From assembly GCF_016599855.1 (NCBI RefSeq), contig NZ_CP067041.1:930001-994000 (forward strand): a stretch of 64,000 nt of DNA, given 5' to 3'. A program made the position numbers and the translations under genes. The notes beneath the pieces are model-generated. The model saw only the letters and a program-made list of their open reading frames with translations, did no database searches and was not told the origin of the DNA. Below are positions 1-22,553 of this stretch, piece by piece. Every line of letters starts with the position of its first letter. Position 1 is the stretch's first letter. The DNA comes from Bradyrhizobium diazoefficiens. Its GTDB lineage: Bacteria; Pseudomonadota; Alphaproteobacteria; Rhizobiales; Xanthobacteraceae.

Positions 1-784
1 TCTCGCGATTGACATTCAGCGTCGCAAGGCCGGAGCCGAAGAAGGCGTTGTGATCGCCGGTGCCGACATGACCGACGGCGCGGACGTTTTCCGGGGTTAT
101 CTTGGTGGCCCAACCGGAGCCGCCGAGCACAAAGGTCTTCGCAGGCAACCGGCTTGCGACGTCGAGGAAGAACGCCTCCACGCGCTGCTCGCGGTCGGGG
201 AGCCGGTTGGCGAGCAGGCTCAGATCGCATTCGAATGCTGGCCGCGCTGGCGCTGGGAAGTGCGTGGCCGGGTCGAGGGCGTTGTAGATCGGCACGCAGT
301 CCCTCGCACCCATGGTCCGATAGGCCGACACGACGCCGTCGCCCCCACCATAGGTCAGCACCATGTCGTAGGACGAAATGACGTTACGCAGGTGGTGATT
401 CGGCTCGTGCGCCATCGCATCCAGCGTGGCGGGCGCATCGACATCCCAGTAGACCCGGATCGCACGGGTTGGAACGCTGGCGACTGCCCGCTCCAGCTCC
501 GTGTCGAACACGCCGACCCCACTGGCCTTCACCAGGATATTTGCGGATCGTGCGGCCACCTCGAGAGATCGCTGCCAACCTTCCGGCGTTGCCGGGTAGA
601 CCACGACCCTGGCCCAGTCCGGCTCCTCGATGTCACGATGCGCCTGCCGTTCGAAGGCATCGGGCTCGAAAAAGGTGATGTCGTATCCGAGCGCCGCGAT
701 TTCCTTCAGCATGCCGCGGTAGTAGGTGGCAGCGCCATTCCAGTAAGACGACACGAGGCTTGAGCCGAAGAAGCAGATTTTCAT
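1..784 (-). CDS. CgeB-type glycosyltransferase, partial (C-terminus outside window)
   Basis: 261 residues are readable from ATG at 784 down to the window edge without a stop. The N-terminus (MKICFFGSSLVSSYWNGAAT) has the S-x-W-x-N-G-x-A pattern shared with the products at 781-1914 and 10384-11487, so the three are probably paralogous. The body has the Rossmann-like alternation of a GT-B glycosyltransferase of the CgeB/DUF3880 kind (spore-coat or cell-surface glycosylation enzymes). The start overlaps the stop of the preceding gene by 4 bases (ATGA), indicating translational coupling at the end of the large leftward operon. Donor and acceptor cannot be read from the sequence. The family call is by resemblance. 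Confidence 0.75.
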   Translation of the reverse strand, partial: MKICFFGSSLVSSYWNGAATYYRGMLKEIAALGYDITFFEPDAFERQAHRDIEEPDWARVVVYPATPEGWQRSLEVAARSANILVKASGVGVFDTELERAVASVPTRAIRVYWDVDAPATLDAMAHEPNHHLRNVISSYDMVLTYGGGDGVVSAYRTMGARDCVPIYNALDPATHFPAPARPAFECDLSLLANRLPDREQRVEAFFLDVASRLPAKTFVLGGSGWATKITPENVRAVGHVGTGDHNAFFGSGLATLNVNRE

Positions 785-1914
785 GCTACGGCTCCTTCGT
801 GTGCGTTTGGCTGCTGCAATGATGGTCGTCGGCCGCAAACCTCCGCCACGATCTCCAGAAGCTGGAGCACGCGATGACGGCAGGTGTGGCGGTCGGAGAC
901 GGCGCGGAGCCCGCGCGCAGCGGTCGCCAAGGCGAGCTCGGGATCGTGCAGCAGCGATCGAAGGGCCTGCTTCATTTGCCCGCGATCTGCGGCTCGGAGA
1001 TAAGAGCCCTCCGGAAATATCCGCTCGGCGTCGTCCCAGGGGGCAGAGACGATCGGAATGCCGCACGCCATGGCCTCGAACATCCGGATAGTCGGAATGC
1101 CCCGGAGCGAGCGGACATACGGTCCGCGCGGAACGTGAACGGTCGTGCGTGCGCGAGCAAAGGCGCTGGGGGCCTGGTGGGCGGGCAGCCAGCCGCAATA
1201 GGCGATCCCGGCCGCGTCGATGGTGCGTAGCGCAGTATCGGAATAGCGCACGCCGTATATTTTCGCGCGGAGTGCCAGCTCGGACACAGGCCGAACCAGA
1301 AATTCGTCGAGCTCGGCGGCCCGCTCGCCGTCGCCCCAATTGCCGATCCAGACCACGTCATCGGTGCGCGCGATCTCCGGCAGCAGCCGGTAGAGCGCCA
1401 CGTCCGCAGCCTCATGCCAGGTGAAGGCCCGGTTCGCCCAGCCGAGCTTCAGGTAGATTTGGCGAAGCACTTCGCCGAACGCCAGCACGCCGTCGAAACC
1501 ATCAAGGTCGAATTGCTCAAGCTCCGCAGGCGCGGTGACGGCGCGGTGATGGGTGTCGTGGAACAGGAGAGTGAATGACGCGCCTTGGGCGCGACGACGG
1601 CCGATCTCTGCGATCAGCTCCGGGGAATTCCATTCGTGGACGATGACAAGGCCCGCGCCGTCGAGCGCTCGGTCGAGATCGAGAAAAGTGTCGTACCGGC
1701 GAATATCAAGTCCCGAGAACAGCGTCTGCACCTCGTTCAGAACCTGCTCGCCGCGGTCACGGATCGCGTTGAGCCGGCTCCAGCCGTCGATCGGCTCGAA
1801 CACGACGACCTCGTGACCCAACGCATGGAGTTCGCGCGCAACACCGCGGAGAAAATGCGCGTTGCCGTTGTTCCAGCAGGAGGTAAAGGCATGGCAGAAC
1901 AGAACGCACCTCAT
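781..1914 (-). CDS. CgeB-type glycosyltransferase
   Basis: 377 residues. It begins MRCVLFCHAFTSCWNNGNAH, with the N-terminal pattern shared by the other two CgeB-like proteins of the cluster. The C-terminal half contains VWIGNWGDGERA (start of the second GT-B domain) and RMFEAMACGIPIVSAPWDD, the typical nucleotide-sugar-binding segment with an acidic pair, as in CgeB/glyco_trans_1_2 proteins. It likely transfers a sugar during assembly of a surface or lipid-linked glycan in the cytoplasm. It overlaps both neighbours by 4 bases, so it belongs to the leftward operon. The substrate is unknown. Confidence 0.8.
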   Translation of the reverse strand: MRCVLFCHAFTSCWNNGNAHFLRGVARELHALGHEVVVFEPIDGWSRLNAIRDRGEQVLNEVQTLFSGLDIRRYDTFLDLDRALDGAGLVIVHEWNSPELIAEIGRRRAQGASFTLLFHDTHHRAVTAPAELEQFDLDGFDGVLAFGEVLRQIYLKLGWANRAFTWHEAADVALYRLLPEIARTDDVVWIGNWGDGERAAELDEFLVRPVSELALRAKIYGVRYSDTALRTIDAAGIAYCGWLPAHQAPSAFARARTTVHVPRGPYVRSLRGIPTIRMFEAMACGIPIVSAPWDDAERIFPEGSYLRAADRGQMKQALRSLLHDPELALATAARGLRAVSDRHTCRHRVLQLLEIVAEVCGRRPSLQQPNAHEGAVA

Positions 1915-3023
1915 GCCTGCACCTCGATCCGTTCGGATGTGACACCGGGTGGGCCCGATGCCAGCAGTTCTTTGTAGAGCCGAAGATAGGCGCCGGTCAT
2001 CCGCGCCAGCGAATAGTCGAGAGAGCGCTCATAGGCTGCGCGCTGCAGCTCTGCGCGCTTGCTGTCGTCGGTGCTGAGATCCGCCAGCGCCCGCCTGAGC
2101 GCCGCTGCATCGCAGGGATCCACGAACACAGCGGCCCCGGACCAGAGCTCGCGGAAGGTCGGAATGTCGGACAGCACGAGCGCGCAGCCGCTGGCAGCGG
2201 CTTCGAGAACCGAAAGGCCAAACGGTTCGTACAAGGCCGGGCTTGCGAAAATGGCCGCGCGCTGCAGTCGCGCGCGCAGAGCACGATGCGGCAGTTCGCC
2301 CAGCGAGGTTAGGCCGGAGGCCGTGGAGCGCTCGGCCGGCCCTGCGACAAGCAGCGGCCATTTCAATCCCTGTGCGGCTTCTGCCAGCGCCGCAATGTTC
2401 TTGGCACGGTCCCACAGCCGGCCCGCCGCAAATATGAAGCTTTGCTTGCGCGTGCCGGGAGCCTGGGGCGCGATTCCATTCCAGATCACACTGCCATGCG
2501 CGCCGGGCTGATACAGCTCCTCGATGACGTCATGGAAGGCGCGGCTGGGGCTGACCCAGGCTTGCGTCCTGCTCAGCCCGGCAGCGACTGCCTCGGTATA
2601 GTTGCGCCACCTGGGCTCGCCCAGCCAATCCATGTCATGGCAGGCGAGCCCCCAGGAATTCACGCAGGAATGGGCGACGACAAGGGTTGGCGCCCGCCAG
2701 TCGAAGGTCGCCTCGCGGAAGCTGTTGAGATGGATGAGGTCGGGCCCGAGTTCGGCTTCAAGCCCGGAGAGAACATGTCGCGCATTGGCAAGGTCGCATC
2801 CTTCCGGGTCCTGCCATTCGAGCGTGAGATCGGTCTCGATCAGGCGGACACGGTGGTCGCGCAGCATGGTGCGTTGATAGGAGCGCGCGCGAGGTCCCAT
2901 GGTGACCAGGTCGACCTCGGCGCCGGACGCGACGAGCGCCGAAGCCAGGGCGCACGAATAAGTCCATACGCCACCGACGGTGTCGGTCGTCATCAGGATG
3001 CGCATGTCCGCCCGTGCGTTCAT
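1911..3023 (-). CDS. GT4-family glycosyltransferase
   Basis: 370 residues. The N-terminal Rossmann domain starts MRILMTTDTVGGVWTY (residues 7-22), and the C-terminal domain carries FAAGRLWDRAKN, PALYEPFGLSVLEAAASG and a following ALVLSD, the EPFGL...E-x7-E layout of retaining GT4 enzymes. It is probably a cytoplasmic sugar transferase of the same pathway as its neighbours. The ATG at 3023 overlaps the stop of the radical SAM gene (ATGA), which supports this start; an internal ATG at 3005 would remove only NARAD. Sugar specificity is not visible. Confidence 0.85.
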   Translation of the reverse strand: MNARADMRILMTTDTVGGVWTYSCALASALVASGAEVDLVTMGPRARSYQRTMLRDHRVRLIETDLTLEWQDPEGCDLANARHVLSGLEAELGPDLIHLNSFREATFDWRAPTLVVAHSCVNSWGLACHDMDWLGEPRWRNYTEAVAAGLSRTQAWVSPSRAFHDVIEELYQPGAHGSVIWNGIAPQAPGTRKQSFIFAAGRLWDRAKNIAALAEAAQGLKWPLLVAGPAERSTASGLTSLGELPHRALRARLQRAAIFASPALYEPFGLSVLEAAASGCALVLSDIPTFRELWSGAAVFVDPCDAAALRRALADLSTDDSKRAELQRAAYERSLDYSLARMTGAYLRLYKELLASGPPGVTSERIEVQA

Positions 3024-4306
3024 GGCGCAACCTCGAGCTCGAGCTCGCGGAGCGGAACGGGACGGGAGTCCTGGACGTCGCTGAATTGATCGAACAAGGC
3101 GAGGTAATGCTGGTGCGCACGCTCCCAGGCGAAATCATCCGGCTCGCCCCAGAGCTTTCGATAATCGGGCGAACCGGGATAGGGATAGAGTGGAACGGGA
3201 TCGTTCGCCCACACTCCGGCGTCCTGCATCCGCCGGCGCCAGCGCTGCACCACGGGGTCATCGTCCTCGGGTACCTCGATCAAATTTGCCTGGACGAAGG
3301 GCACGTGCCGCCGCGCTTCGACCAGCCGGTCGGCAAGCTGATCCGTGCTCATCTTGCAGTTCTTGGCCAGCGCCGCCCGACCCTCAACGGTCAGGCTCTC
3401 GATGCCAGCCTCGATGGACACGCAGCCGGCGCGGCCGAGCAATTTCAGCATTTCCGGCTTCCACAGGTCGATGCGGGTCTGCACGCCGAACTTCAGGCCA
3501 CGTGTGGTGAGGCCTTGCAGCAATTCGGGATTTGGCAGGAAGATTTCATCGATGAAGTAGAGATATTCGATGCCCTGTGCACGCAGATCATCGATCTCCT
3601 CCAGGATGATCGCAGCGGGACGCCTGCGATAGGCGTTGCGAAAATTGTCCTTGGCGCAGAATGTGCAGTGATACGGGCAACCCCGTGACGCCTCGACCTC
3701 GGCACCCGGACCCTTCGGCTCGGCCTCAAAGCGGTGATGGTGGTGATCGTGGCGCCTGATCATCTCGTACGGCCATTGCAGCGGCGGCTGATCTGTGAAG
3801 CTCACCGCCTGCGGACCGCCGTTGACCCGGACCGAGCTGCCGTCGGCGAAGCAAAGTCCGGCGAAGTCACGCTCGCCGTTGGCAAGACGTAACAGTGATT
3901 GCTCGCACTCGCCCATCACGACGATGTCGGCGCCAAGCTTCCTGAGCGTCGTCCTCGGTGTCGTGGAGCCGTGCGGGCCGACCGCGATCAGGGTCGGCGC
4001 AAGGTCGCGCACCGCAATGGCAAGCTCCTGGGGGACGCGGAGCTCCGGCGGCGCGCAGCGCCAGAACAGATAGGTGGGCGCGGTCGTCAACACGATCAAA
4101 TCGGGCTGGAAGGCGCGAAGCTCGACCTCGATCTCGGCGAGCGAAAGATCGAACATGTGTGCGTCGAGCAGCAGCGTCTTGTGACCGGCCGCCTTCAGGT
4201 AATGTTCGCTGATGCCGAGCTCGAGCGGAAGGTGCGGCGAGCGGCAGCCGAAATAGATGCTGCCGTCAAAATTCCAGTTGGGGTTGATCAGGGCAATGCG
4301 CGTCAT
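3020..4306 (-). CDS. B12-binding-domain radical SAM enzyme
   Basis: 428 residues when started at the ATG at 4306, which overlaps the upstream stop (ATGA). The open frame runs a further 54 codons upstream, but that stretch lies over the epimerase gene and looks non-coding. Residues 1-150 form a cobalamin-binding-like alpha/beta domain. The radical SAM motif C210-P-Y-H-C214-T-F-C217 follows, introduced by EASRG, and further on are IEAGIES and PYPGSPDY. A histidine run (HDHHHHHR, about residues 186-192) precedes the radical SAM domain. From memory this resembles NCBI model TIGR04295, found beside TIGR04290 methyltransferases; an HMM search should confirm that. Such enzymes often methylate or rearrange unactivated carbons. 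The substrate here is probably the sugar or polyol made by this operon (inference). Confidence 0.85.
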   Translation of the reverse strand: MTRIALINPNWNFDGSIYFGCRSPHLPLELGISEHYLKAAGHKTLLLDAHMFDLSLAEIEVELRAFQPDLIVLTTAPTYLFWRCAPPELRVPQELAIAVRDLAPTLIAVGPHGSTTPRTTLRKLGADIVVMGECEQSLLRLANGERDFAGLCFADGSSVRVNGGPQAVSFTDQPPLQWPYEMIRRHDHHHHRFEAEPKGPGAEVEASRGCPYHCTFCAKDNFRNAYRRRPAAIILEEIDDLRAQGIEYLYFIDEIFLPNPELLQGLTTRGLKFGVQTRIDLWKPEMLKLLGRAGCVSIEAGIESLTVEGRAALAKNCKMSTDQLADRLVEARRHVPFVQANLIEVPEDDDPVVQRWRRRMQDAGVWANDPVPLYPYPGSPDYRKLWGEPDDFAWERAHQHYLALFDQFSDVQDSRPVPLRELELEVAP

Positions 4307-5367
4307 GCCAAGGCCCCGCGATTGCCAAGCGATGACCCGAAGCGGCCATCCAGCCACGTGTAGAGCGAACGCAGTCCCTCCTGCAACGGCACGCCCGGCT
4401 TCCAGCCTAATGTCGTGGAGAGCGCCCGTGTATCGGTGACGTACCAGGGCTGATCGCCGGGGCGCCAATCGGCGAAGCTGTATTTGACTTCCCGGCCGGT
4501 CAACGCCGTGATGTGCTCGATCAATTCCAACAAGCTCACCGAATTGCCCGGGCCGCCGCCGAGATTGAACACGCGCCCGCGTGCAAGCGCGACATGGTCG
4601 AGCGCTGCGAGCCAGGCAGCGGCGGCGTCCGACACATGAAGCGCATCCCGCACCTGGTAGCCGTCGCCGTAGATCGTCAACGGCTGAGCGCGGATGGCGC
4701 TGAGCAGGAAATGCGCGATCCAGCCCTGGTCCTCGGTGCCGAACTGCCGCGGTCCGTAGATACAGCTCATTCGCATCACGGCGGTTTGCAGCCCGAAGAC
4801 GCGCGCGTAGTCGTGGACATACTGGTCCGCAGTCCCCTTCGAGCAGCCATACGGGCTGTAGAAATCGAGCGGCGCGTTCTCGGAGATCCCGTCGGCGAGC
4901 ACAGCACTTGTGGGGACGTAGCGGCGGCCGGCGCGCGCGATCTGCGTGTCGTCGATCAGCCGCCCGTAGACCTTGTTCGTCGAGGCAAACAGCACGGGTG
5001 CCGATGGGTTGTGAAGACGAACAGCCTCCAGCACGTTAATCGTGCCGCGCGCGTTGATCTCAAAATCGGCGAGGGGATCCGTGACGCTGTCGGTCACGGC
5101 GACCTGCGCCGCGAGATGCAACACGGCGCGGGAATCGCGAACCGCGTCGATCACCGGGATGGGATCGCGCACGTCTGCAACCGCGATGTTGATCCGGTCG
5201 CCATGCCTTGACTTGAGCCACTGCGCATTCTCGCGGACGCCGTCGCGGACCAGATTGTCCAGCACGAGCACATTGTCGCCGCGTTCGGCGAGGCGGTCGG
5301 CGAGGTTGCAGCCGATGAAGCCGCAGCCGCCGGTGATTAGGACAGGTCTGTTGTCTCGCTCGCTCAT
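4303..5367 (-). CDS. NAD-dependent sugar epimerase/dehydratase (CDP-paratose 2-epimerase-like)
   Basis: 354 residues from ATG 5367; a GTG at 5370 would add one residue. It is an extended SDR with N-terminal VLITGGCGFIGCNLA (NAD-binding GxxGxxG), HLAAQVAV, the catalytic pair in YGCSKG (YxxxK), and RMSCIYGPRQFG and DQGWIAHFL, which are reminiscent of CDP-paratose/tyvelose 2-epimerases. It probably interconverts or reduces a nucleotide-sugar for the glycosyltransferases of the cluster. It overlaps both neighbours by one to four bases. The exact nucleotide-sugar cannot be decided by eye. Confidence 0.85.
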   Translation of the reverse strand: MSERDNRPVLITGGCGFIGCNLADRLAERGDNVLVLDNLVRDGVRENAQWLKSRHGDRINIAVADVRDPIPVIDAVRDSRAVLHLAAQVAVTDSVTDPLADFEINARGTINVLEAVRLHNPSAPVLFASTNKVYGRLIDDTQIARAGRRYVPTSAVLADGISENAPLDFYSPYGCSKGTADQYVHDYARVFGLQTAVMRMSCIYGPRQFGTEDQGWIAHFLLSAIRAQPLTIYGDGYQVRDALHVSDAAAAWLAALDHVALARGRVFNLGGGPGNSVSLLELIEHITALTGREVKYSFADWRPGDQPWYVTDTRALSTTLGWKPGVPLQEGLRSLYTWLDGRFGSSLGNRGALA

Positions 5368-6479
5368 CACGCGACAAGTCCTCGCTGCAGCAATTCTCGT
5401 GTCGCCTTCTCGGCCTGATCGTCGGCTATCTGGTCCGCCAGATATTCGGCCAGCTCATTGAGCCCGTCTTCGAACACCACGCGCGGCTCGAAGCCGAGCA
5501 GATCGCGGCTCCTGGCGATATCGGCAAAACAATGCCGGATATCGCCCGCACGGTACTTTCCGGTGATTTCGGGCTCGATCTCCGAGCGGCCCATCACGGC
5601 AGCCAGATCTCGCGCGACCGAAGCAATCGTGCGGCACTGTCCCGACCCGACATTGAACACGTCGTTCGCGTGCGTGCTTTCGAGGGTGAGCCGGCAGGCG
5701 CGGGCAACGTCCGTGACGTGGACGAAGTCACGTCTCTGCAGCCCGTCCTCGAACACCAGGGGCGGGCGGCCGTTGAGCAGGCGCGCCGCGAAGATCGCGA
5801 GCACGCCCGTATAAGGGTTGGACAGCGCCTGCCGTGGTCCGAACACGTTGAAGAAACGCAGCGCCACGGTCGGAATGCCGTAGGCGTTGCCGGTGATCAG
5901 GCACATGCGCTCCTGGGCGTATTTGTTGAGCGCGTAGATCGAGCTCAGGGAGGCCGTCTTGGTCTCCGGGGTCGGCAGCGGATCGAGATTGCGGCCGTTC
6001 GCATCGCGCAACTCCCAATCCCCGTTCCGCAGCTGCTGGATCGGTCGCTCGGGCGGCGCGAATTCGGCGCCATCGGCGGTCAGGCACAGGCCCTCGCCAT
6101 AGATGCTCATGGATGAGGCCACGACCAGGCGCGCGACGGGCCGCTTCGAGATCGCCTGCATCAAGATGCCGGTGCCGAGCTCGTTGGTCCGCACATAGGG
6201 GGCGATGTCATACATGCTCTGGCCGACGCCAACGGCAGAGGCGAGATGCAGGACCATATCGGCGCCGCGAAGCGCGCGCTCGACCGAAAGCTCGTCGGTG
6301 ACGTCGCCGACGATGAGTTCCGCGTCTTCGCTGAGATAGGAGGGCCGCTTCCGGTCGGGGCCATGAATTTGCGGCGAGAGATTGTCGAGTACCCTGACCT
6401 CGTATCCGGCGGCGAGCAGCGCGTCAGCGGCGTGAGACCCGATGAACCCTGCGCCTCCGGTGATCAATACTCGCGTCAT
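5367..6479 (-). CDS. NAD-dependent nucleotide-sugar epimerase
   Basis: 370 residues. It starts MTRVLITGGAGFIGSHAADA (extended SDR NAD-binding motif), has YALNKYAQE (YxxxK) and RFFNVFGPRQALSNPYTGV, typical of UDP-glucose 4-epimerase and dTDP-rhamnose 4-epimerase relatives. An insertion of about 25 residues before the active-site tyrosine (residues 150-180) also fits the dTDP-L-rhamnose epimerase branch. It is the first gene after a 200-bp gap in the leftward run and is coupled to the next epimerase by overlap. It likely supplies one of the activated sugars used downstream. Confidence 0.85.
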   Translation of the reverse strand: MTRVLITGGAGFIGSHAADALLAAGYEVRVLDNLSPQIHGPDRKRPSYLSEDAELIVGDVTDELSVERALRGADMVLHLASAVGVGQSMYDIAPYVRTNELGTGILMQAISKRPVARLVVASSMSIYGEGLCLTADGAEFAPPERPIQQLRNGDWELRDANGRNLDPLPTPETKTASLSSIYALNKYAQERMCLITGNAYGIPTVALRFFNVFGPRQALSNPYTGVLAIFAARLLNGRPPLVFEDGLQRRDFVHVTDVARACRLTLESTHANDVFNVGSGQCRTIASVARDLAAVMGRSEIEPEITGKYRAGDIRHCFADIARSRDLLGFEPRVVFEDGLNELAEYLADQIADDQAEKATRELLQRGLVA

Positions 6480-6680
6480 CGCCGCCTCGCCAGTACGCGA
6501 CCGGCGTTCCGACCGGTCAGGATTGAAAGTGGAAGCGCGCTATGCAGATGGCTTGATCGACTGCGCGCCGGTCACCTCTGGAGAAGCGGTGCAAGGAATG
6601 TTGGTTCCTCGAAAATGTACAAACGAAAATTTCTCTAACCTGGATCAATAACGTTTGTGAATCGGCGACTGGCGATGGCG
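6480..6680 (-). other. Intergenic gap inside the glycan cluster
   Basis: This is the only real gap in the leftward gene run. On the minus strand it has GGAAC at 6604-6608 followed after 16 bases by GCTT, a poor match to the stress-sigma consensus GGAAC-N16-CGTT that stands clearly at 13230-13254. It could carry a second, weaker promoter for the epimerase-to-glycosyltransferase half. I see no gene and no hairpin with a T-tract. Confidence 0.3.
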
Positions 6681-7880
6681 TCAGAACGGGATGCCATGCG
6701 GCAGCGGGGGTAGGTCCAGATGCCGGGCGACCGTTGCACCGGTGTCGGCAAAGCCGACACGCCGGCCGACAGCAGATGAATGTTCCCCGTTCCGAAGCAG
6801 GATGGGCACCTGCTCCCGTGTATGATCCGTACCAGGCCAAGTCGGGTCGCAACCATGATCGGCGGTGATCACCAGGAGGTCATCGCCCTTCAATCGCATC
6901 AGCAGCTCCGGAATGCGGCTATCGAAGGCCTCAAGCGCCGCAGCATAGCCGGCGACGTCGCGCCGATGCCCGTAGACGGTATCGAAATCGACAAAATTTG
7001 CGAATAGGAGGCCGCCGTCGGCCAGACCGGACAGGCCGTCGAGCATGCAATCGAACAGCGCATCGTTTCCATCGCCGCGGAGGTTACGGCCTGTGGCGCG
7101 ATGGGCAAAGATGTCGTCGATCTTGCCGATCGTCACGATGTCGCGGCCGAGGTCCGCCGCAAAATCCAGCATGGTTTGCTCCGGTGGCGGAACGGAAAAG
7201 TCCCGCCGGTGCGCAGTCCGCCGGAACCCCTGCTGAGAAGATCCGATAAAGGGCCGGGCGATAACGCGGCCGATATTGAGAGGATCGACCAGCCGACGCG
7301 CCACCGCGCAGATCTCATACAGTCGGTCCAGGCCGAAGGCTTCTTCGTGAGAGGCAATCTGAAATACGCTGTCGGCGGAGGTGTAGCAGATCGGCTCGCC
7401 GCTCCGCATGTGACGCTCGCCAAGTTCATCGATAATGGCCGTGCCCGACGCGTGGCAGTTTCCGATGATGCCGGGGAGACCTGCCTCGCGACATAGGGCA
7501 GCTGTGAGCTCTTGCGGAAAGCAGGGAACCGTCTTCGGGAAGTAGCCCCAATCGAACGCGACGGGGACACCGGCGATCTCCCAATGACCGGATGGCGTAT
7601 CCTTTCCTCTCGACAGTTCGCTGGCGCAGCCGGCGTGCGCATGCGAACAGGCACCCTCTAGTCCGGGTGGCACCCGGCCGGTGGCCAGCCGACAGGCTTC
7701 GCCGAGGCCCATCGCGACAAGATTCGGGAGACGAAGCGGTCCGCGGTCGTTGTCGGTCTGGCCACGCAGGCAGGCCTCTGCAATATGGCCGACCGTGTCC
7801 GCTCCCTCGTCGCCATAGCGGCTCGCATCGGGGGCTCCACCGATGCCGACGGAATCCATCACCACGATCAGGGCACGCAT
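6681..7880 (-). CDS. deoB: Phosphopentomutase
   Basis: 399 residues, normal length for DeoB. It has [21 protein letters not shown] (N-terminal metal ligand region), [11 protein letters not shown] (the segment holding the phospho-threonine in this alkaline-phosphatase-superfamily mutase; many homologues have T where this has S) and [17 protein letters not shown] (metal-binding Asp and His). It interconverts ribose or deoxyribose 1-phosphate and 5-phosphate. It sits among sugar-modifying genes rather than with nucleoside salvage genes and its start overlaps the GH-A gene by 13 bases, so it may provide pentose 1-phosphate, or a related sugar phosphate, to this pathway (inference). Confidence 0.95.
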
Positions 7881-8815
7881 GTCGTTTCCTTGCTGGGCTC
7901 GTGGCCAAGCGAGGCGGAGAAACCGGTCTTATCGCAATACCGCTCCACCATCCGGGCGCAGAAATCGGCGAACTCGTTCACGTCCAGCGGCGGGCTGGTA
8001 TGGTGAGGTGCGATGCCCCGATGTTCCGGCGTGAAGCAGAACGTCACCGTCACGTCAAATTCAGCGAGGGCGTCCATCTGGCGATCGAACCAGTCGAGCG
8101 CATTCGGGCGAAAGCTGTCGGCCCAGGACAGGCCGGTGCGAAGATGCCGGCATCCGACGCGGCGCAACCACAGTACCGCATCGTGCAGGCGATGATCCTC
8201 GAAATGAAACCATTGGCACAGCCCCATGGCTGGCGCATGGTCCGCAAAAGTTCTTAGCGCAGCCTTGGGCGTTCCGTCTTCGCGCAGCAAGCCCATGTGA
8301 AAGTGCCGGTAATAGGAGGAGCCTTCCGCCTCCTTGTGCCGCGTTGTCGCCTCCCAGGTCGAGGGAAGATCGTAGAGGCTGTACCAGTGAATGCGCGGGG
8401 CGCGCCCGTTCAGGAGCTCCGCGGTGCGTTGGAGTCCCCAGTCCTGCACCTCTTCGGCGCCGAACGAGGAGACGCCGACCTCCGTGACCCAGACCGGCAG
8501 CGAGGTTACGGCGGCGATCTCTGCGAGCTTACCCGGCCATTCCTGGATCTGCCACAGGTTCCAGTCGAGCGGGAATCCGTGTACGGCCACGGCATCTACG
8601 TGATCGAGTACGCCGCGCATCTGCATGTTGCGAACGAAGGACGGATCGATCGGCGAGATGCCGCCGAGCACGCGGGGCAAGCTCGGATGCGCGCTCCGGA
8701 TCGCCTTGCCGGCGGCGATCGCAAGCTCGGCGAACTTCGCCCAGTCGGGATCGATCAGGATATCCCAATGCGACTTGTTGTTCGGCTCGTTCCAGATTTT
8801 TGCAGCTTCGATCAT
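7868..8815 (-). CDS. GH-A clan (beta-xylosidase-like) protein with apparently permuted TIM barrel
   Basis: 315 residues. The protein opens directly with [13 protein letters not shown], where E10 is the clan GH-A acid/base glutamate normally found after barrel strand 4. VWVTEVG (E112) matches the nucleophile on strand 7. The C-terminal part (about 205-293: [51 protein letters not shown]) looks like the segment that normally precedes WNEPN, strands 1 to 3. The order therefore appears circularly permuted. The start is fixed by ATGA overlap with the methyltransferase stop, so the beginning is not simply mis-called. It probably cleaves or remodels a glycoside of the pathway; no signal peptide is seen. 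Confidence 0.7.
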
Positions 8816-9573
8816 TTCACAGCACCCGCTGGATAGACTGCTCCGTCAGCCTGCGGGCGCGCCGTTCTCGTACAGAGATAGACCTCGTCCTCGGGATGGG
8901 CCGTAATGGCGAAACCGGAGCTGCGCAGCATGGCCTCGACGCAGGCGCGGTTGGGCACCCACCAATTGGTGGGATCGTCTGCGTATTTATTCTCGATGAA
9001 GTGCAGCTTTGGATAGCCCGGAGAATCGAACTGGTCCGTGGTCCAGAAATCATAGTTCTTGTCGACGGGATCGATTCGGCTGTCGCCGCGCAGCATGGAT
9101 TGGAACAGCAGCAGGTCGCGCGCGACATGCTCATGGATCAGGTCGAGCGCGAGCAGGGGATGGCGGAGGTGGTAGAGAACGCCCATGAAGATCACGAGGT
9201 CAAATTGCTCCCGCAGCTGCCCGACGTCATAGGCCGACATTTTGCGGAATTCGATCCTGAGACCGTTCACCTCGGCGGCAAAGCGCGCCTGGGCGAGATA
9301 GTCCTCGTCGGTGTCAAGGCCGAGCACGCGCTCGGCACCGCGCCGCTTCATCTCCATCGCGTAGAAGCCGGCATTGCAGCCGATATCGAGCACCGTCTTA
9401 CCTTCGAGACGATCGGGGATGATGCCGGAGAAGCGGCGCCACTTGACGTTGGGATAGTCGCCGAGAAAGTGTGACGGCGCGGTCGGGACGCCGTTCAGGT
9501 CGAGATTGTGGAACCACGGCCCGAGTGCATCGACGCGCCGGCGGATTTCCTCCTGCGAAAGCGCGTTTTTCAT
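8812..9573 (-). CDS. SAM-dependent methyltransferase, CmoB-like (TIGR04290-like)
   Basis: 253 residues. A class I methyltransferase: motif I is VLDIGCNAGFYAMEM, followed by RVLGLDTDEDYLAQA and LREQFDLVIFMGVLYHLRHP, which resembles the tRNA U34 carboxymethyltransferase CmoB. The N-terminal WFHNLDLNGV segment is also CmoB-like. I recall a family TIGR04290 described as CmoB-related and linked to glycan clusters; this should be checked by HMM. Position inside the sugar operon suggests methylation of a sugar or cyclitol rather than tRNA (inference). It overlaps both neighbours by 4 bases. Confidence 0.85.
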   Translation of the reverse strand: MKNALSQEEIRRRVDALGPWFHNLDLNGVPTAPSHFLGDYPNVKWRRFSGIIPDRLEGKTVLDIGCNAGFYAMEMKRRGAERVLGLDTDEDYLAQARFAAEVNGLRIEFRKMSAYDVGQLREQFDLVIFMGVLYHLRHPLLALDLIHEHVARDLLLFQSMLRGDSRIDPVDKNYDFWTTDQFDSPGYPKLHFIENKYADDPTNWWVPNRACVEAMLRSSGFAITAHPEDEVYLCTRTARPQADGAVYPAGAVK

Positions 9574-10382
9574 CCTGCTGTCCTTCCGTCATCCGCCTTC
9601 GCCGCAGCGGAGGTGCCAGCGGATGGCGAGCCCGCCCACAGCTTCGACCGGCCGTCGCTATCGGTGCTCTCGGCGAGCAGCGCCATCGCCGTCCGGTAGC
9701 CGTTGACGGTGCCGACATCGACATAGGACTCGCCCGCCTTGACGCCGACGCCGCGGCCGCCGGCCTCGAGATAGGCATTCACCAAGGTGCCGAAATATTC
9801 GTCGCGGCAGTCTCGCTGCCGCCAGAGCAGCTGCAAATCGCGAAACGCGGCGGCCGACATCCGGAAGGCGCCCCAGATCCATCGCGACGCGGGGTTGGCC
9901 TGTTTGACCTGGATTTCCCTTATAGACTCGCCGTCGAGCACCACCGCATCGAAGAATTCGGGGTGCTCAACGGGAAACAGCAGGAACGACAAATCGGCGT
10001 CGGGCAGTGCTTGCAAGGCCGCCTTGGGAAACCACACTGTATCCGGAAGGCCGACCATGACGTCCTCGCGGTCTCCGATGACCGTACCGGCTCGAAACAC
10101 CGCATCGCACAGTCCGGCCGCGTGCGGCTGCACGACGTAGGCGAGCTGCGCGCTGCCGTAGTGATCGCCAAAATATTCGAGGATGTCGGACTTGCCGGGT
10201 GAGATGACGAAGCAGATCTTGTCGGTGCCGCCAAGGATCAGGCGCTCGATCAGATATTCCGACACCGCGCAGGGCCGCTCGATTCCGTTGTCGCGCCGAC
10301 TGCCGACCGGCAGCAGCTCCTTGGAAAACGCCAGTGGCTGAATGCGGCTGCCGCGGCCCGCGGCTGGAACGATGCCCCACAT
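9570..10382 (-). CDS. Sugar-phosphate nucleotidyltransferase
   Basis: 270 residues from ATG 10382. The longer open frame upstream lies over the next gene and is discarded; this start leaves a 1-base gap to that gene. The N-terminus MWGIVPAAGRGSRIQPLAF with SKELLPV is the glucose-1-phosphate thymidylyl/uridylyltransferase signature (GxGxR...K-ELLPV). Later MVGLPDTVWFP gives the metal-binding Asp and YVDVGTVNGYRTAM is the C-terminal DvGT segment. It activates a sugar 1-phosphate with an NTP to make the nucleotide-sugar used by the epimerases and glycosyltransferases. Confidence 0.88.
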   Translation of the reverse strand: MWGIVPAAGRGSRIQPLAFSKELLPVGSRRDNGIERPCAVSEYLIERLILGGTDKICFVISPGKSDILEYFGDHYGSAQLAYVVQPHAAGLCDAVFRAGTVIGDREDVMVGLPDTVWFPKAALQALPDADLSFLLFPVEHPEFFDAVVLDGESIREIQVKQANPASRWIWGAFRMSAAAFRDLQLLWRQRDCRDEYFGTLVNAYLEAGGRGVGVKAGESYVDVGTVNGYRTAMALLAESTDSDGRSKLWAGSPSAGTSAAAKADDGRTAG

Positions 10383-10383
10383 C

Positions 10384-11487
10384 TTAGGCCTCCTCGGCTT
10401 CGGGTTGGCGGAGGTCTTGCCGCGAGGCTTGCTCCAGAAGCGAAACGAGCTCGCTCGCGCGCCGAGCGGAACTATGCTGATCAAGGATTCGCTCGCGCGC
10501 CCGCTGCGCCATGCGCGACAGGTCCGTCTCGTCCATATCGAGAGCGGCAAGGGTATCGCACGTGTCATGAGCCAGCAGGATTTCCTCGCCGGCGGTGAAG
10601 AACTCGCCGATGCCGGGCCAGCTGTCACTGAGCAGCGGTACGCCGCAGGCGGCCGCCTCAAACAGGCGGCCCGAAGGACACCAGCCCATCTCCGCCATGG
10701 CGCGGCGGGTCACATTGAGCGTCAGCCGGGACGATGCAAAGAATGGCGCGTGCTCCGAGGGCGGCAGGTGGCGGACGAAGTAGATGTTGGGCGACCATGG
10801 AAAATCGTCGGGATATTGCGCGCCGCCGATCAGAAACCGCAGGTCTCGCCTCGCACGTGCCGGCTCGACGAACAGGCTCTCCAGCGCGCCTTGCCGATCC
10901 TGCGAATAGGTGCCGAGATAGGAGAGCGCCGAGCGATAGTGCGGCTGCGGCGGCACTGGCCGGTGTACGTCGGGATCGACGTGGCCATAGAGCGGGCGGA
11001 CGTCGCGAGCGCCGAGCCTGTTGCGAAATTCATCCTGGATATGCGGACCGCCGGTGAAGCTCAGGACGAGCTCGAAATCACGCAAACCCCGCACGCCGAT
11101 ATAGGGGACCGGCTCGCCTGCTCTCAGCTTGGCGAGCGTCACGGGCGTATCGAGATCGTAGAACACGGGCGTGGCGCATCCGGCCTCGGCGATCAGCTCA
11201 GTCGCAGCAACCGCATCGGGGCAATAGGACGTCACGATCCCGGCGTCGGCATCATGCAGTTCGGCCGCGGCCTTGTCGCGGATATCCGTCCAGGACGCGA
11301 ACAGCTCGAGCTGGCCCCCAGGGAGCTCGAATAGGTCCCTGGCCCCGGCATAATAGGGGACGTCACGCTCGAAGAAAACGATCCTATGCCCCGACTGCAC
11401 GAGATGCTTGCAGAGGCCGCGCCACAGCGTGGCGTGGCCGTTGCCCCAGGACGACGAGATCGTCAGCCCGAAAATTACGATCTTCAC
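10384..11487 (-). CDS. CgeB-type glycosyltransferase
   Basis: 367 residues. It starts MKIVIFGLTISSSWGNGHAT, with the N-terminal pattern shared by the products at 1-784 and 781-1914. The second domain begins SALSYLGTYSQDRQGALESL and ends with GRLFEAAACGVPLLSDSW, as in CgeB/DUF3880 glycosyltransferases. It is likely a cytoplasmic GT-B enzyme acting early, as its gene is third in the leftward operon and overlaps the histidine phosphatase gene by 4 bases. Acceptor unknown. Confidence 0.82.
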   Translation of the reverse strand: MKIVIFGLTISSSWGNGHATLWRGLCKHLVQSGHRIVFFERDVPYYAGARDLFELPGGQLELFASWTDIRDKAAAELHDADAGIVTSYCPDAVAATELIAEAGCATPVFYDLDTPVTLAKLRAGEPVPYIGVRGLRDFELVLSFTGGPHIQDEFRNRLGARDVRPLYGHVDPDVHRPVPPQPHYRSALSYLGTYSQDRQGALESLFVEPARARRDLRFLIGGAQYPDDFPWSPNIYFVRHLPPSEHAPFFASSRLTLNVTRRAMAEMGWCPSGRLFEAAACGVPLLSDSWPGIGEFFTAGEEILLAHDTCDTLAALDMDETDLSRMAQRARERILDQHSSARRASELVSLLEQASRQDLRQPEAEEA

Positions 11488-12080
11488 GCCGGCATCCTTT
11501 GATTGATGTTCGCTATGCGAATTCTCGCTCTGTCGACCGATAGCGTGCTGACGCTCGCCGGATCGACCTCGACTGAGAGAAACTGATCGAGGTCGACGCC
11601 CGAATAGTGCAGCAGGGCCGCGCGGATCGGTTCGGCATGGCTGACAACCGCAATCGTGCCGTCGTCATAATCGCTGCGGAGCCGTTCGAGATGATCGACC
11701 ACCCGGCGCTGCAAGGCGCGCATGCTTTCGCCGCCGGGTGGGCGATGGCTTCCGCGGGCCGCATTCCAGGCCGACCAGAGTGGATCATCTTGCAATGCTG
11801 CGAAAGACCGCCCTGTCCACTCGCCATAGTCGAGCTCCGCGAACGCCGGAACGATCTCGATGGCGAGGCCGAAGCGGTCAGCCAGGATGGATGCCGATTG
11901 CAGCGCCCGACGCTGCGGACTGGCGTGGATCAGCGTGGGCGGAGGCTGGATGAGACCGGCGCAGCGCGCCATTTGTCGGCAGCCGAGATCGTCGAGCTCG
12001 ACGCCGGTCATCCGGCCGCAGAGCACCTCGCCGAGCAGTGCGTGATGGCCATGCCGGACGAGATGAATGGTCTTCACCAT
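11484..12080 (-). CDS. Histidine phosphatase (phosphoglycerate-mutase superfamily)
   Basis: 198 residues. LVRHGHH near the N-terminus carries the catalytic RHG histidine (H10). ASPQRRALQSASILA, ELDYGEWTGRSF and VSHAEPIRAAL complete the superfamily pattern (second catalytic His in VSHAEP). Family members dephosphorylate small molecules such as cobalamin precursors and sugar phosphates. Placed immediately after inositol-phosphate synthase with a 6-base gap, it could dephosphorylate inositol phosphate or a sugar phosphate of this pathway (inference). Confidence 0.85.
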   Translation of the reverse strand: MVKTIHLVRHGHHALLGEVLCGRMTGVELDDLGCRQMARCAGLIQPPPTLIHASPQRRALQSASILADRFGLAIEIVPAFAELDYGEWTGRSFAALQDDPLWSAWNAARGSHRPPGGESMRALQRRVVDHLERLRSDYDDGTIAVVSHAEPIRAALLHYSGVDLDQFLSVEVDPASVSTLSVDRARIRIANINQRMPA

Positions 12081-12086
12081 GGCATA

Positions 12087-13181
12087 TCACGCCTTGTCCT
12101 CGATGAAGGCGCGCGTCCTGCGGCGTGCCTCCTCGTCAGTGAACTGTTGCGGCGGGGACTTCATGAAGTAGCTTGAGGGCCCGGTCAGCGCGCCGGACAG
12201 TCCGCGATCCATCGCGAGCTTGGCGCAGCGCACCGCATCGATCACGACGCCTGCCGAGTTCGGCGAATCCCAGACTTCGAGCTTCACCTCGGCGCTCAGG
12301 GGAACGCCACCGAAGGTTGTGCCCTCCAGCCGGATGAAGGCGAGCTTGCGGTCGGTGAGCCAGGGCACGTGATCGCTCGGGCCGACATGGATATTGTCCG
12401 CGTCCATGGGAACCTCGAACTGACTCGTGACTGCCTGGGTTTTTGATATCTTCTTCGACGCCAGGCGCTCGCGCTCGAGCATGTTCTTGAAGTCGGTATT
12501 GCCACCAACATTGAGCTGATAGGTCCGATCGAGCCGCACGCCGCGCTCGCGAAACAGATTTGCGAGCACCCGGTGCAGGATGGTGGCTCCGACCTGGCTC
12601 TTGATATCGTCGCCAATGATGGGCACTCCCGCCTCCTCAAATCGGCGCCGCCAGCCGGGATCGGAGGCTATGAACACCGGGATGCAGTTCACGAAGCCGC
12701 AGCCGGCCTCGATCGCGCGCGCGGCGTACCACTCGCTGGCCCTTTGGGAGCCGACCGGAAGATAGGAGACCACCACATCCGTTCGCGACTTCGTCAGGAC
12801 ATCCCCGACATGGGCCTCGGGTGCATCGGCGATCGGAATATCGTCTTCGAGATAGCGGCCGACTCCATCGAGAACGGGACCGCGCTGCACGATCACTCCG
12901 GTTTCGGCAACTTCCGCAAAGCGATGTGTATTGTTGGGGCTCGCCCAGATTGCCGCGGCGACGTCGCGTCCGACCTTGTTGGCATTGACGTCGAAGGCCG
13001 AGGCGATCTCGATGTCGCTGATATGATAGCCCCCGACTTCCGCGTTCATCAATCCAGGGACCGGCTCGTTGGCGGTGGCATCGCGGTAGTAGGTGAGTCC
13101 CTGGACGAAGGAGCTTGCGCAATTTCCCACTCCAACGATACCGACGCGCACGCGCCGCCTGTCTTGAAGACGTGAATGCAT
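12087..13181 (-). CDS. ino1: Inositol-3-phosphate synthase (myo-inositol-1-phosphate synthase)
   Basis: 364 residues from ATG 13181, preceded by GGAGG at a good distance; frames reaching farther upstream have no support. [18 protein letters not shown] is the NAD-binding start, [17 protein letters not shown] and [13 protein letters not shown] are hallmark MIPS segments, and [19 protein letters not shown] with [11 protein letters not shown] form the C-terminal part. The size and sequence fit the short actinobacterial/archaeal-type synthase. It converts glucose 6-phosphate to inositol phosphate. It is the first gene of the leftward operon, with a stress-sigma promoter 49 bases upstream of its start, so the whole cluster is probably induced in stress or stationary phase. 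Confidence 0.93.
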
Positions 13182-13229
13182 CGAGCGTGATCCTCCGGGA
13201 GCGAGACGGCGCGAATGTAAGTAGGTCGG

Positions 13230-13254
13230 CGAACGTGTGAAAGGTATGTTCGTT
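13230..13254 (-). promoter_or_regulatory. EcfG-type general stress promoter for the ino1 operon
   Basis: Read on the minus strand: GGAAC (13254-13250), 16 bases, then CGTT (13233-13230). This is an exact match to the alphaproteobacterial general stress sigma-factor (EcfG) consensus GGAAC-N16/17-CGTT. The -10 element lies 49 bases before the ino1 ATG with GGAGG in between, a normal leader length. Seen directly; function inferred. Confidence 0.82.
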
Positions 13255-13356
13255 CCTGCGCCGGCGACACGCGTGGGACAAGCGGGGCGAATCCGACGGA
13301 CAAACTGCAAAAAACTTAACGCAGGATAGAATTGGAAAAGTTCATTGAGGAACGAA

Positions 13357-13522: not shown

Positions 13523-13819
13523 ATGACCAAGCGCCAAACCAGGACCAGCGACAGCGAAGCGCACACAACGACAGATCACGATATCATCCGCAAATGGGCG
13601 GAGGAGCGGGGCGGCAAGCCTGCAACCGTCAAGGCGACCGAAGACGACGATCACGCCGGTATTCTGCGTATCGATTTCGATCCGGCGGACAAAGGCCTCG
13701 ACCGGATCAGCTGGGACGAGTTCTTCGAAAAATTCGACGAGTCCGGAATTGCGTTCCTTCATCAGGACCACACCAAGGACGGCAAGCTGAGCCGATTCCA
13801 CAAATTCGTGCGCGGCTAG
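13523..13819 (+). CDS. Small conserved protein, rhizobial stress-type
   Basis: 98 residues from ATG 13523, preceded by GAGGA at a proper distance; an in-frame extension to 13460 has no ribosome site. The protein contains [20 protein letters not shown] and later [20 protein letters not shown], a pattern I know from many small Bradyrhizobium proteins of unknown function. It is highly charged, with no signal or membrane segment. It lies 15 bases ahead of the GT9-like gene and may be co-transcribed with it. No biochemical role is known to me. Confidence 0.85.
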
Positions 13820-13834
13820 CCGGGCGGGACGCCG

Positions 13835-14818
13835 ATGTCGATGCGCATGGGGCTGGTGCCGGTGCCGCTCAAGTCCCCGGAGGGCGACTGGGTGGAGGCG
13901 ATGCGGGCCGGGGATTTCGAGCGGGCCTGGTCCATTAGCGACCGCGATCTTGCAGCACTGTGCCGGACCGGCCCGGCCAAGCATGTCGGTCCGCGCCATT
14001 TGCAGCGGATCTGGCGGGGCGAGGAACTCTGCGGGAAGCGCGTGCTCGTTCGCTGTTATCACGGCCTCGGCGACACGATCCAGTTCCTTCGATTCATGCC
14101 CGCGCTGCGCAGGATCGCGCGCGAGGTGACCGTCTGGTGCCAACCGGAGCTGTTGTGTCTGGTCGAACGTGTCGAGGGCGTCGACCGGGCGCTGCCGCTC
14201 AATGATGGCACGCCGGAGGTGGCATTCGACGCCGACATCGAGATCATGGAAATTCCGCACGCCATCAAGGCAACGCGCGACACTGTCGAGATGCAGCATC
14301 CCTACCTGTCGCTCCCGCCCGTAGAGGCAGACGTGCTGCCGGAACACGCCGGAGCACTCGCGGTCGGCGTGGTTTGGGAAGTGGGCGATTGGGACAAGCG
14401 CCGCGCCATTCCGGCGGCTCTGCTGCGCATGCTCGGAGGTGAGGGCATAGACCTCTATTCCCTCCAACGGGGACCGGCATCGCGGCAGCTGGGCGAGTTT
14501 GGAGCGAAGGACTTCAGCACGTCGGACATCTGTCAGCTCGGCCAGCGGATTCGGCGGCTCGACCTTGTGATTTGTGTCGATACCATGGTTGCGCACCTGG
14601 CGGGCGCGCTGGGTATTGAAGCGTGGGTATTGCTGCACGCCGGCTGCGATTGGCGCTGGCCTGCCTCAGGCGACAGATCCTTCTGGTATCCGAGCCTTCG
14701 ACTGTTCCACCAAGGAATGCCTGGAGGGTGGGCCGGCGTCGTTGAAGAAGTGCGGATTGCGCTTTGCGAGCGTGCGCGCGGCCGCTATCCGAGCGCCGCT
14801 CCGACGGGAGGTGGCTGA
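13835..14818 (+). CDS. GT9/heptosyltransferase-like glycosyltransferase
   Basis: 327 residues. HGLGDTIQFLRFMPAL (residues around 75-90), RLDLVICVDTMVAHLAGALG and CDWRWPASGDRSFWYPSLRL are the signature of the GT9-like domain found at the C-terminus of many rhizobial TPR glycosyltransferases, here without the TPR half. It likely transfers a sugar to a surface glycan. It lies next to the divergent ino1 glycan operon and could take part in the same pathway (inference). Its 3' end overlaps the convergent Crp/Fnr gene by 34 bases. Confidence 0.78.
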   Translation: MSMRMGLVPVPLKSPEGDWVEAMRAGDFERAWSISDRDLAALCRTGPAKHVGPRHLQRIWRGEELCGKRVLVRCYHGLGDTIQFLRFMPALRRIAREVTVWCQPELLCLVERVEGVDRALPLNDGTPEVAFDADIEIMEIPHAIKATRDTVEMQHPYLSLPPVEADVLPEHAGALAVGVVWEVGDWDKRRAIPAALLRMLGGEGIDLYSLQRGPASRQLGEFGAKDFSTSDICQLGQRIRRLDLVICVDTMVAHLAGALGIEAWVLLHAGCDWRWPASGDRSFWYPSLRLFHQGMPGGWAGVVEEVRIALCERARGRYPSAAPTGGG

Positions 14819-22164: not shown

Positions 22165-22553
22165 GGCATCTCACCTCTTTAAGAAGTTCTGAAAGGGAAG
22201 GGATCGCGGTTCCCGTACGCTCAGCGCTTCGACTGCATGCGCAGTGATAATTTGAGGCCATTGTGTCCGTTCCATTCTCTCCGAGCCATTCGACGAACCC
22301 CGGTTTCGAGAATTGAAGATGACCGTCGGCCTCCTGCTTCAGGCCGGGGCGCAGATCGTGCTCTTCTGCGGTTCGGACTTCCGGTCATTGCCGCACCTTC
22401 CTGACCGGACATGGAGTCTGACTTCTTTGCAAAGTCCCTGGTCGGCGCGCAGAACGCTCCGGCTGGATAATTCTTGCTTGGCGACTTTAGCGAGCGGCTG
22501 AAACACAGGTCCGGAATCTCAGGAACCGGGCGCACGCGAGCCCGTTCGATCCA
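22165..22553. other. Divergent intergenic region, no gene seen
   Basis: About 390 bases between the leftward GT4 gene and the rightward CDF gene. It must hold both promoters. I did not find an exact stress-sigma motif, palindromic operator or coding frame that I trust. Confidence 0.4.

Follow-up and report, generated by a model that had tools for sequence, protein, structure and literature searches.

Two protein families in the NCBIfam collection, TIGR04290 (meth_Rta_06860) and TIGR04295 (B12_rSAM_oligo), are hypothetical equivalog models to which no function is assigned, and beyond these two definitions we found nothing in the open-licence literature on the gene system described here. Among better known systems, the mycobacterial MMP and MGLP clusters bring together cytosolic transferases, a methyltransferase and a hydrolase, as this system does, and to our knowledge they hold no inositol-3-phosphate synthase (MIPS), UDP-glucuronate decarboxylase (UXS) or radical SAM enzyme. 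PslG of Pseudomonas aeruginosa, a glycosidase of the glycoside hydrolase clan A (GH-A) type, is reported to be located mainly at the inner membrane (PMC9075953). Here we analyse a stretch of 64,000 nucleotides of Bradyrhizobium diazoefficiens DNA (the window; positions 930001-994000 of a 7.1 Mb single-contig genome), at whose left edge lies an operon of 15 genes carrying members of both NCBIfam families. We regard the operon as a glycan biosynthesis locus with an unusual, circularly permuted enzyme. We tentatively favour, at somewhat less than an even chance, the reading that it encodes a cytosolic pathway controlled by the general stress sigma factor EcfG, whose product is a small methylated, pentose-containing hetero-oligosaccharide, most likely built on an inositol (phosphate) acceptor.

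Results

A preliminary description of this DNA had reported thirteen leftward genes, most of them joined by 4-base overlaps. This holds for the window, where genes A to M (lettered in order of transcription) point leftward from 13181 to the left edge, M being cut at base 1, and where the 12 junctions comprise eight 4-base overlaps, a 13-base overlap and three gaps (6, 1 and 201 bases). The operon is longer, however, since N and O follow M beyond the window edge (locus L001), giving a run of 15 co-directional genes in which 4-base overlaps account for 9 of the 14 junctions and a 13-base overlap for one more. The sole large gap is that of 201 bases between G and H.

Gene A (12087..13181; all coordinates of operon genes in the window refer to the minus strand) codes for an MIPS (PF01658 over cut-off; INO1 structure 1gr0, E 1.3e-141), B (11484..12080) for a branch 1 histidine phosphatase of the MSMEG_4193/CobC-like type (PF00300, 8e-43; NCBIfam scores under cut-offs), D (9570..10382) for an RmlA/GlmU-like sugar nucleotidyltransferase (PF00483, 2.7e-08; RmlA chains, E 3e-06) and G (6681..7880) for the phosphopentomutase DeoB (NF003766, 497 bits, cut-off 256). 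These four calls, made earlier from the sequence alone, were upheld by Pfam, NCBIfam and structure searches, and both A and G are the single copies of their kind in the genome. A search with hidden Markov models confirmed that the CmoB-like methyltransferase E (8812..9573) belongs to TIGR04290 (373.8 bits, cut-off 300) and the B12-binding radical SAM protein J (3020..4306) to TIGR04295 (727.9 bits, cut-off 400), the latter covering positions 1-422 of the 422 in the profile. At least four glycosyltransferases had been expected and five were counted: C (10384..11487; PF13524, 7.8e-38) and L (781..1914; PF13524, 4.2e-31), both of the Glyco_trans_1_2 type, the GT4-type K (1911..3023; PF00534, 1.1e-16; PF13439, 1.2e-13), M (1..784 in the window, whole gene L001:11696-12784) and, outside the window, N (L001:10575-11699), the last two matching PF13524 at 6.8e-39 and 6.9e-43.

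The two epimerases of the preliminary description are indeed of epimerase type, but the operon has three extended short-chain dehydrogenases/reductases once O is included. H (5367..6479; PF01370, 5e-51) is of the nucleotide-sugar epimerase type and resembles epimerases in general when compared with solved structures (best relative 6wjb, 165 bits). Judged by their matches, I (4303..5370) and O (L001:9499-10563, outside the window) are members of the CDP-tyvelose 2-epimerase and UXS families, respectively. The best match of I to solved TyvE is full-length (9rl0, 281 bits; 1orr, 268 bits; next match, 127 bits), and O matches UXS1 (4gll/2b69, E ~1e-109) with 370 bits to 4gll over the full length versus 144 bits for the next other family; both proteins score under all listed NCBIfam cut-offs.

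None of the 15 operon proteins (15/15) has a 19-residue Kyte-Doolittle window reaching 1.6 or more, and so none has a predicted membrane segment, for which reason assembly of the product looks cytosolic. By families and hydropathy, no flippase, polymerase, ligase or transporter was found among the 15 proteins, which extends to the whole operon the earlier statement that flippase, polymerase and O-antigen ligase were missing, and no initiating membrane transferase was found among the 15 genes either.

A scan with J, of which the best 80 places were taken, yielded 78 distinct loci. The Bradyrhizobium group accounts for 28 of them, Mesorhizobium for 7 and Myxococcota for 9; the other 34 are mostly acidobacterial, with one locus each from an alphaproteobacterial assembly, Thiohalomonas and Manganitrophaceae. 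The neighbourhood is conserved, as the preliminary description had stated, but it is not specifically rhizobial. Within the same class, TIGR04295 is over cut-off in 13 of 289 genomes (our own genome included). Bradyrhizobium, Mesorhizobium, Acidobacteriota and Myxococcota all have loci in which the core H-N keeps its order. Many of the compared loci stop at contig edges; among those holding both genes of a pair, these are neighbours in 65/65 cases for H-I, 68/68 for I-J, 62/63 for J-K, 56/60 for K-L, 69/71 for L-M, 64/67 for M-N and 40/41 for N-O, and likewise in 48/49 for E-F, 37/39 for C-D and 35/39 for D-E. The operon genes therefore co-occur in other genomes with their order kept, and this conservation divides them into two modules, the core H-N(O) and a second one made up of C-F together with A and B. 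Only in the Bradyrhizobium group was G found (26/28 loci). In a tree of 57 of the 76 J proteins, from which 19 Bradyrhizobium rows were left out, Bradyrhizobium, Mesorhizobium and Myxococcota each fall on one side of a branch.

Co-inheritance was analysed in 147 genomes of the genus, 42 of which have TIGR04290 over cut-off. MIPS is present in 42/42 of these and in 1/105 of the others (G326, which lacks the operon and has MIPS in another setting), phosphopentomutase in 40/42 and 0/105, and TIGR04295 in 38/42 and 0/105 (Fisher p 5e-31 to 4e-36, shared ancestry not corrected for). The co-inheritance with MIPS supports inositol as a compound of the pathway, most firmly in Bradyrhizobium, where these gene counts support it as an integral part. 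MIPS was also looked for in 40 of the genomes behind the 78 J loci and is encoded in 35 of these 40, including all eight from Rhodopseudomonas and Mesorhizobium. Furthermore, a different, longer MIPS lies directly after O in five Sorangium-type loci (L045, L048, L059, L062 and L077; Pfam checked in L045), by which inositol synthesis is linked to the system twice. D and G are jointly absent in L022, L093 and L094, while G alone is absent in L025; this joint loss and their chemistry (pentose-5-phosphate to pentose-1-phosphate to NDP-pentose) lead us to infer that D and G probably act in series in this genus.

An exact promoter of the general-stress type precedes the operon, as the preliminary description had stated. 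The motif GGAAC-N16-CGTT (GGAACGAACATACCTTTCACACGTT; 13232..13256, minus strand) is an exact match to GGAAC-N16/17-CGTT, which we take to be the EcfG consensus, and is separated by 50 bases from the ATG of A, itself preceded by GGAGGA. In the region between -400 and +60 relative to the called start of A, we found an exact GGAAC-N16/17-CGTT, with varying spacers, in 23 of 26 Bradyrhizobium-group loci; the number rises to 25 of 26 when tblastn is used to set this start in four doubtful loci (gaining L011 and L017). None of 359 permuted motifs reaches 23 loci (mean 0.27), and the nearest ones (21, 21 and 18 loci) overlap the true motif, shifted by one or two bases. In ten further loci, the promoter is present in all five that have J (L093-L097) and in one of four that lack it, and not in the operon-free L092. 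The seven near-identical Mesorhizobium loci (7/7) carry GGAAC-N16-AGTT before H. By itself the motif shows no genomic enrichment (159 sites versus 167 for the reversed pattern); despite this frequency, the conservation of promoter and gene order across loci is more than chance, and the operon is probably under the control of the alphaproteobacterial general stress sigma factor EcfG. Three other exact GGAAC-N16-CGTT sites occur in the window, on the plus strand at 22522, 59382 and 62758.

Gene F (7868..8815) had been described as a GH-A protein, and it is of GH-A type, matching PF11790 weakly (17.7 bits, cut-off 21), but its barrel is circularly permuted. The acid/base motif IWNEPNN stands at the start of the protein and the nucleophile motif WVTEVG in mid-chain (catalytic Glu 10 and 112), and the last part of the chain corresponds to the segment that opens an ordinary GH-A barrel. 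The AlphaFold2 model of F shows eight barrel strands (pLDDT 86.9, pTM 0.86). Fifty-one homologues in the fetched loci align end to end with F, two of them being cut short, and both catalytic Glu are kept in 49/49 homologues longer than 270 aa (two read WA[ST]E, which lies outside the pattern searched for, and were read from the sequences themselves). When residues 198-294 were moved to the front and the tail left out, a profile of six homologues matched PslG with 45.7 bits (E 4.5e-11, 3-249 versus 25-300), covering most of the PslG barrel and aligning both catalytic Glu with those of the PslG motifs NEPN and WSTEWG. The same six sequences in native order, without tails, gave 27.8 bits (2-152 versus 131-300) and 31 homologues in native order 30.5 bits; F does not follow the canonical order of barrel strands, its native order matching PslG over a part only. 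The rotated chain gained sub-threshold Pfam matches to GH39 and GH53 and stayed under the GH39 gathering score (13.3 bits, cut-off 26), native F being unlisted there at E up to 1. The catalytic residues of PslG are given as E165 and E276 (PMC9075953), and by our own reading these fit the Glu aligned with F by a constant numbering offset. The rotated alignment identifies F as a relative of PslG whose chain is circularly permuted, which is a new finding.

A GH-A paralogue in normal order (~28-34% identity) fronts the reading frame of I in five loci (L032, L034, L043, L050 and L066), its first part matching the end of F (~156-295) and the next part its beginning (~1-192). Its two catalytic Glu are replaced in all five, by Q, Q, H, R, R and by Q, Q, Q, Q, A, so that this fused domain looks like an inactive pseudo-glycosidase. 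The fusions lie at about 7.9-8.9 kb of their loci, and L051 has another one, cut. At least 8000 relatives of F occur in the protein collection, and the 120 listed are mostly named beta-xylosidase, with one putative transglycosidase; the permuted order was checked in the fetched loci.

In four loci of the genus without J (L088-L091), F and G are separated by 3.1-4.0 kb of different DNA. The insert of L090 holds PIG-L, GT4, GNAT (Acetyltransf_6) and methyltransferase genes by Pfam, and the inserts of L088 and, in part, L089 look alike by eye. Such variants suggest that J may add a decoration that other enzymes can replace. As to single genomes, J and K appear split in G361 (L095:4203-6592), as a decayed copy or through a sequencing fault, G350 holds the whole operon twice (L096 and L097), and G375 carries all four searched genes in duplicate.

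Lastly, flanking genes within 10 kb or less were grouped, and one representative of each of the 36 clusters seen in at least three loci was analysed by Pfam. Pfam found neither a glycan flippase, polymerase or ligase nor an ABC exporter in these 36 clusters, of which 7 had no Pfam match. They include the cytochrome oxidase parts COX1, COX2, COX3 and CtaG, and some bear the names of stress-type or repair genes (YflT, Ku). Cytochrome c oxidase genes lie near the operon here as well (L001:1-1228, CoxB by eye), and cluster membership, with Pfam on representatives, places them in the flanks of L006, L009, L032, L035, L040, L049, L052, L054, L056 and L079, which are Mesorhizobium, some Bradyrhizobium and Acidobacteriota loci. 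Divergent from the operon, on the plus strand, is a GT9-like gene (13835..14818; GT9 16.9 bits, under the cut-off of 22, an association only), whose relative in L030 scores 23.4 bits and whose cluster (c0) is found within 10 kb in 33 loci, 23 of the Bradyrhizobium group and 10 others. A small divergent gene (13523-13819, plus strand, 98 aa) has no family match; its relatives, in 22 Bradyrhizobium-group loci, 6 Mesorhizobium loci and 1 other locus, adjoin A or H in those printed.

Discussion

In the pathway that we propose, A would make inositol-3-phosphate, from which the phosphatase B may take off a phosphate, while O would make UDP-xylose, I would invert C2 of a nucleotide hexose, H could yield a further epimer, and G and D together would provide a nucleotide-activated pentose. 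The sugars would be attached by the five transferases C, K, L, M and N, and methyl groups would be added by E and by J, the B12 radical SAM enzyme; the permuted enzyme F might trim or transglycosylate the product in the cytosol. Five transferases and the absence of a polymerase argue for a short chain. The product would presumably be soluble, made on induction by stress, and possibly protective.

Several observations weigh against a cytosolic oligosaccharide built on inositol. MIPS was not found in 5 of the 40 genomes searched, all of them acidobacterial assemblies and possibly incomplete, and within the fetched loci it was unseen in the 34 others (mostly Acidobacteriota), in 4/9 Myxococcota and in 6/7 Mesorhizobium; by coordinates it lies 3.4-3.6 kb past the fetched end in two Mesorhizobium loci (L049 and L052, with cytochrome oxidase genes after O). 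The similarity of K to the inositol transferase MshA is weak (28 bits, cut-off 462). Outside the Bradyrhizobium group D occurs without G in 15/15 D-bearing loci, where it may use another sugar or the mutase may be encoded elsewhere. The exact promoter is absent from Rhodopseudomonas L022, which has GGAAC-N16-GGTT, and from 3/4 of the variants that lack J. In addition, export through unlinked genes is possible.

A further point of this kind opens the alternative that fares best, in which the operon makes a glycolipid, its transferases glycosylating a lipid of the inner leaflet (e.g. phosphatidylinositol or a hopanoid) and no flippase being needed. In 5/5 Sorangium-type loci, those with the MIPS after O, a gene for a CDP-alcohol phosphatidyltransferase (cluster c11; PF01066, 66.6 bits in L045) lies ~2 kb from H on the other strand. 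This points to a lipid, and we have weighed the glycolipid up and the cytosolic oligosaccharide slightly down on its account. MIPS commonly feeds phosphatidylinositol, the MIPS of G326 has CDP-alcohol-transferase-like and acyltransferase-like open reading frames near it (by eye), and the NCBIfam relatives of J, all far under cut-off, include hopanoid and ladderane-lipid enzymes. However, the 15 operon genes encode no lipid synthase, acyltransferase or membrane segment, and besides c11 no lipid synthase or acyltransferase was found by Pfam in the representatives of the 36 flanking clusters. We consider the glycolipid a serious alternative, if somewhat unlikely.

Alternatively, the operon could be the precursor and assembly part of an exported polysaccharide or of a lipopolysaccharide component, with flippase, polymerase and ligase encoded elsewhere and F acting as PslG does in Psl synthesis. 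The relation of F to PslG is in line with this, the hydrolytic activity of PslG being important for full Psl production (PMC9075953), and so is the GT9-like gene in the vicinity of 33 loci. Against it stand the lack of an initiating membrane transferase in the operon and the lack, by Pfam, of export, polymerisation and ligation genes among the 36 flanking clusters; moreover, the published bradyrhizose/O-antigen cluster of photosynthetic Bradyrhizobium seems to be another locus, as the 23-mer of an ORS285 gdh primer is absent from 87 loci, a weak indication from one strain and exact matches only. An exported polymer appears improbable. That one stress operon houses two separate pathways, A-G for a product of inositol and pentose and H-O for a glycan unrelated to it, is very improbable, for although outside Bradyrhizobium the modules C-F and H-N can be separated or face in opposite directions (L057, L060, L064 and L069) and the two Mesorhizobium loci mentioned above have cytochrome oxidase genes after O and MIPS further off, TIGR04295 occurs only in TIGR04290 genomes (38/38 in the sample of the genus) and the modules are contiguous in several Acidobacteriota loci, e.g. 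L029-L031, L034, L038 and L043.

If the cytosolic oligosaccharide is correct, two orphan NCBI families would gain a product and a part in the stress response, and there would be an explanation for the presence of MIPS in 43 of the 147 sampled genomes of the genus, all but one of them with the operon. Since inoculants of Bradyrhizobium have to withstand drying, a glycan dedicated to stress would also be of practical interest. A wider proposal, which is unlikely as it stands, is that such products form a class of cytosolic stress protectants common to soil bacteria of several phyla, namely methylated, xylose- and pentose-containing oligosaccharides on inositol that receive a decoration from a B12 radical SAM enzyme and are completed by a circularly permuted GH-A enzyme acting as an intracellular transglycosidase.

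Comparison with known systems shows both likenesses and differences. J and E are members of TIGR04295 and TIGR04290, but these models name two genes and do not describe the 15-gene operon, its stress promoter, the linkage to MIPS and DeoB or the permuted GH-A protein. The operon resembles the mycothiol synthesis genes (Ino1, MshA-D) in joining an INO1-type MIPS and a GT4 transferase; it differs in that A scores under the TIGR03450 cut-off (523.4 versus 638 bits), in the low score of K to MshA, and in having no PIG-L deacetylase in the operon, two being encoded elsewhere in the genome. The variants that lack J do have PIG-L genes, as checked by Pfam in L090, and others lie close to L034, L043 and L060. 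F shares with PslG the GH-A barrel, the catalytic Glu that align after rotation and the placement of its gene in a glycan biosynthesis cluster, and departs from it in its permuted order and in having no membrane segment. Natural circular permutation is likewise reported for other glycosidases, GH70 and MalS (GH13); those enzymes are of GH13 and GH70, whereas F is GH-A like, and a circularly permuted GH-A protein would, if true, add a new arrangement to a glycosidase clan that is large and has been studied thoroughly.

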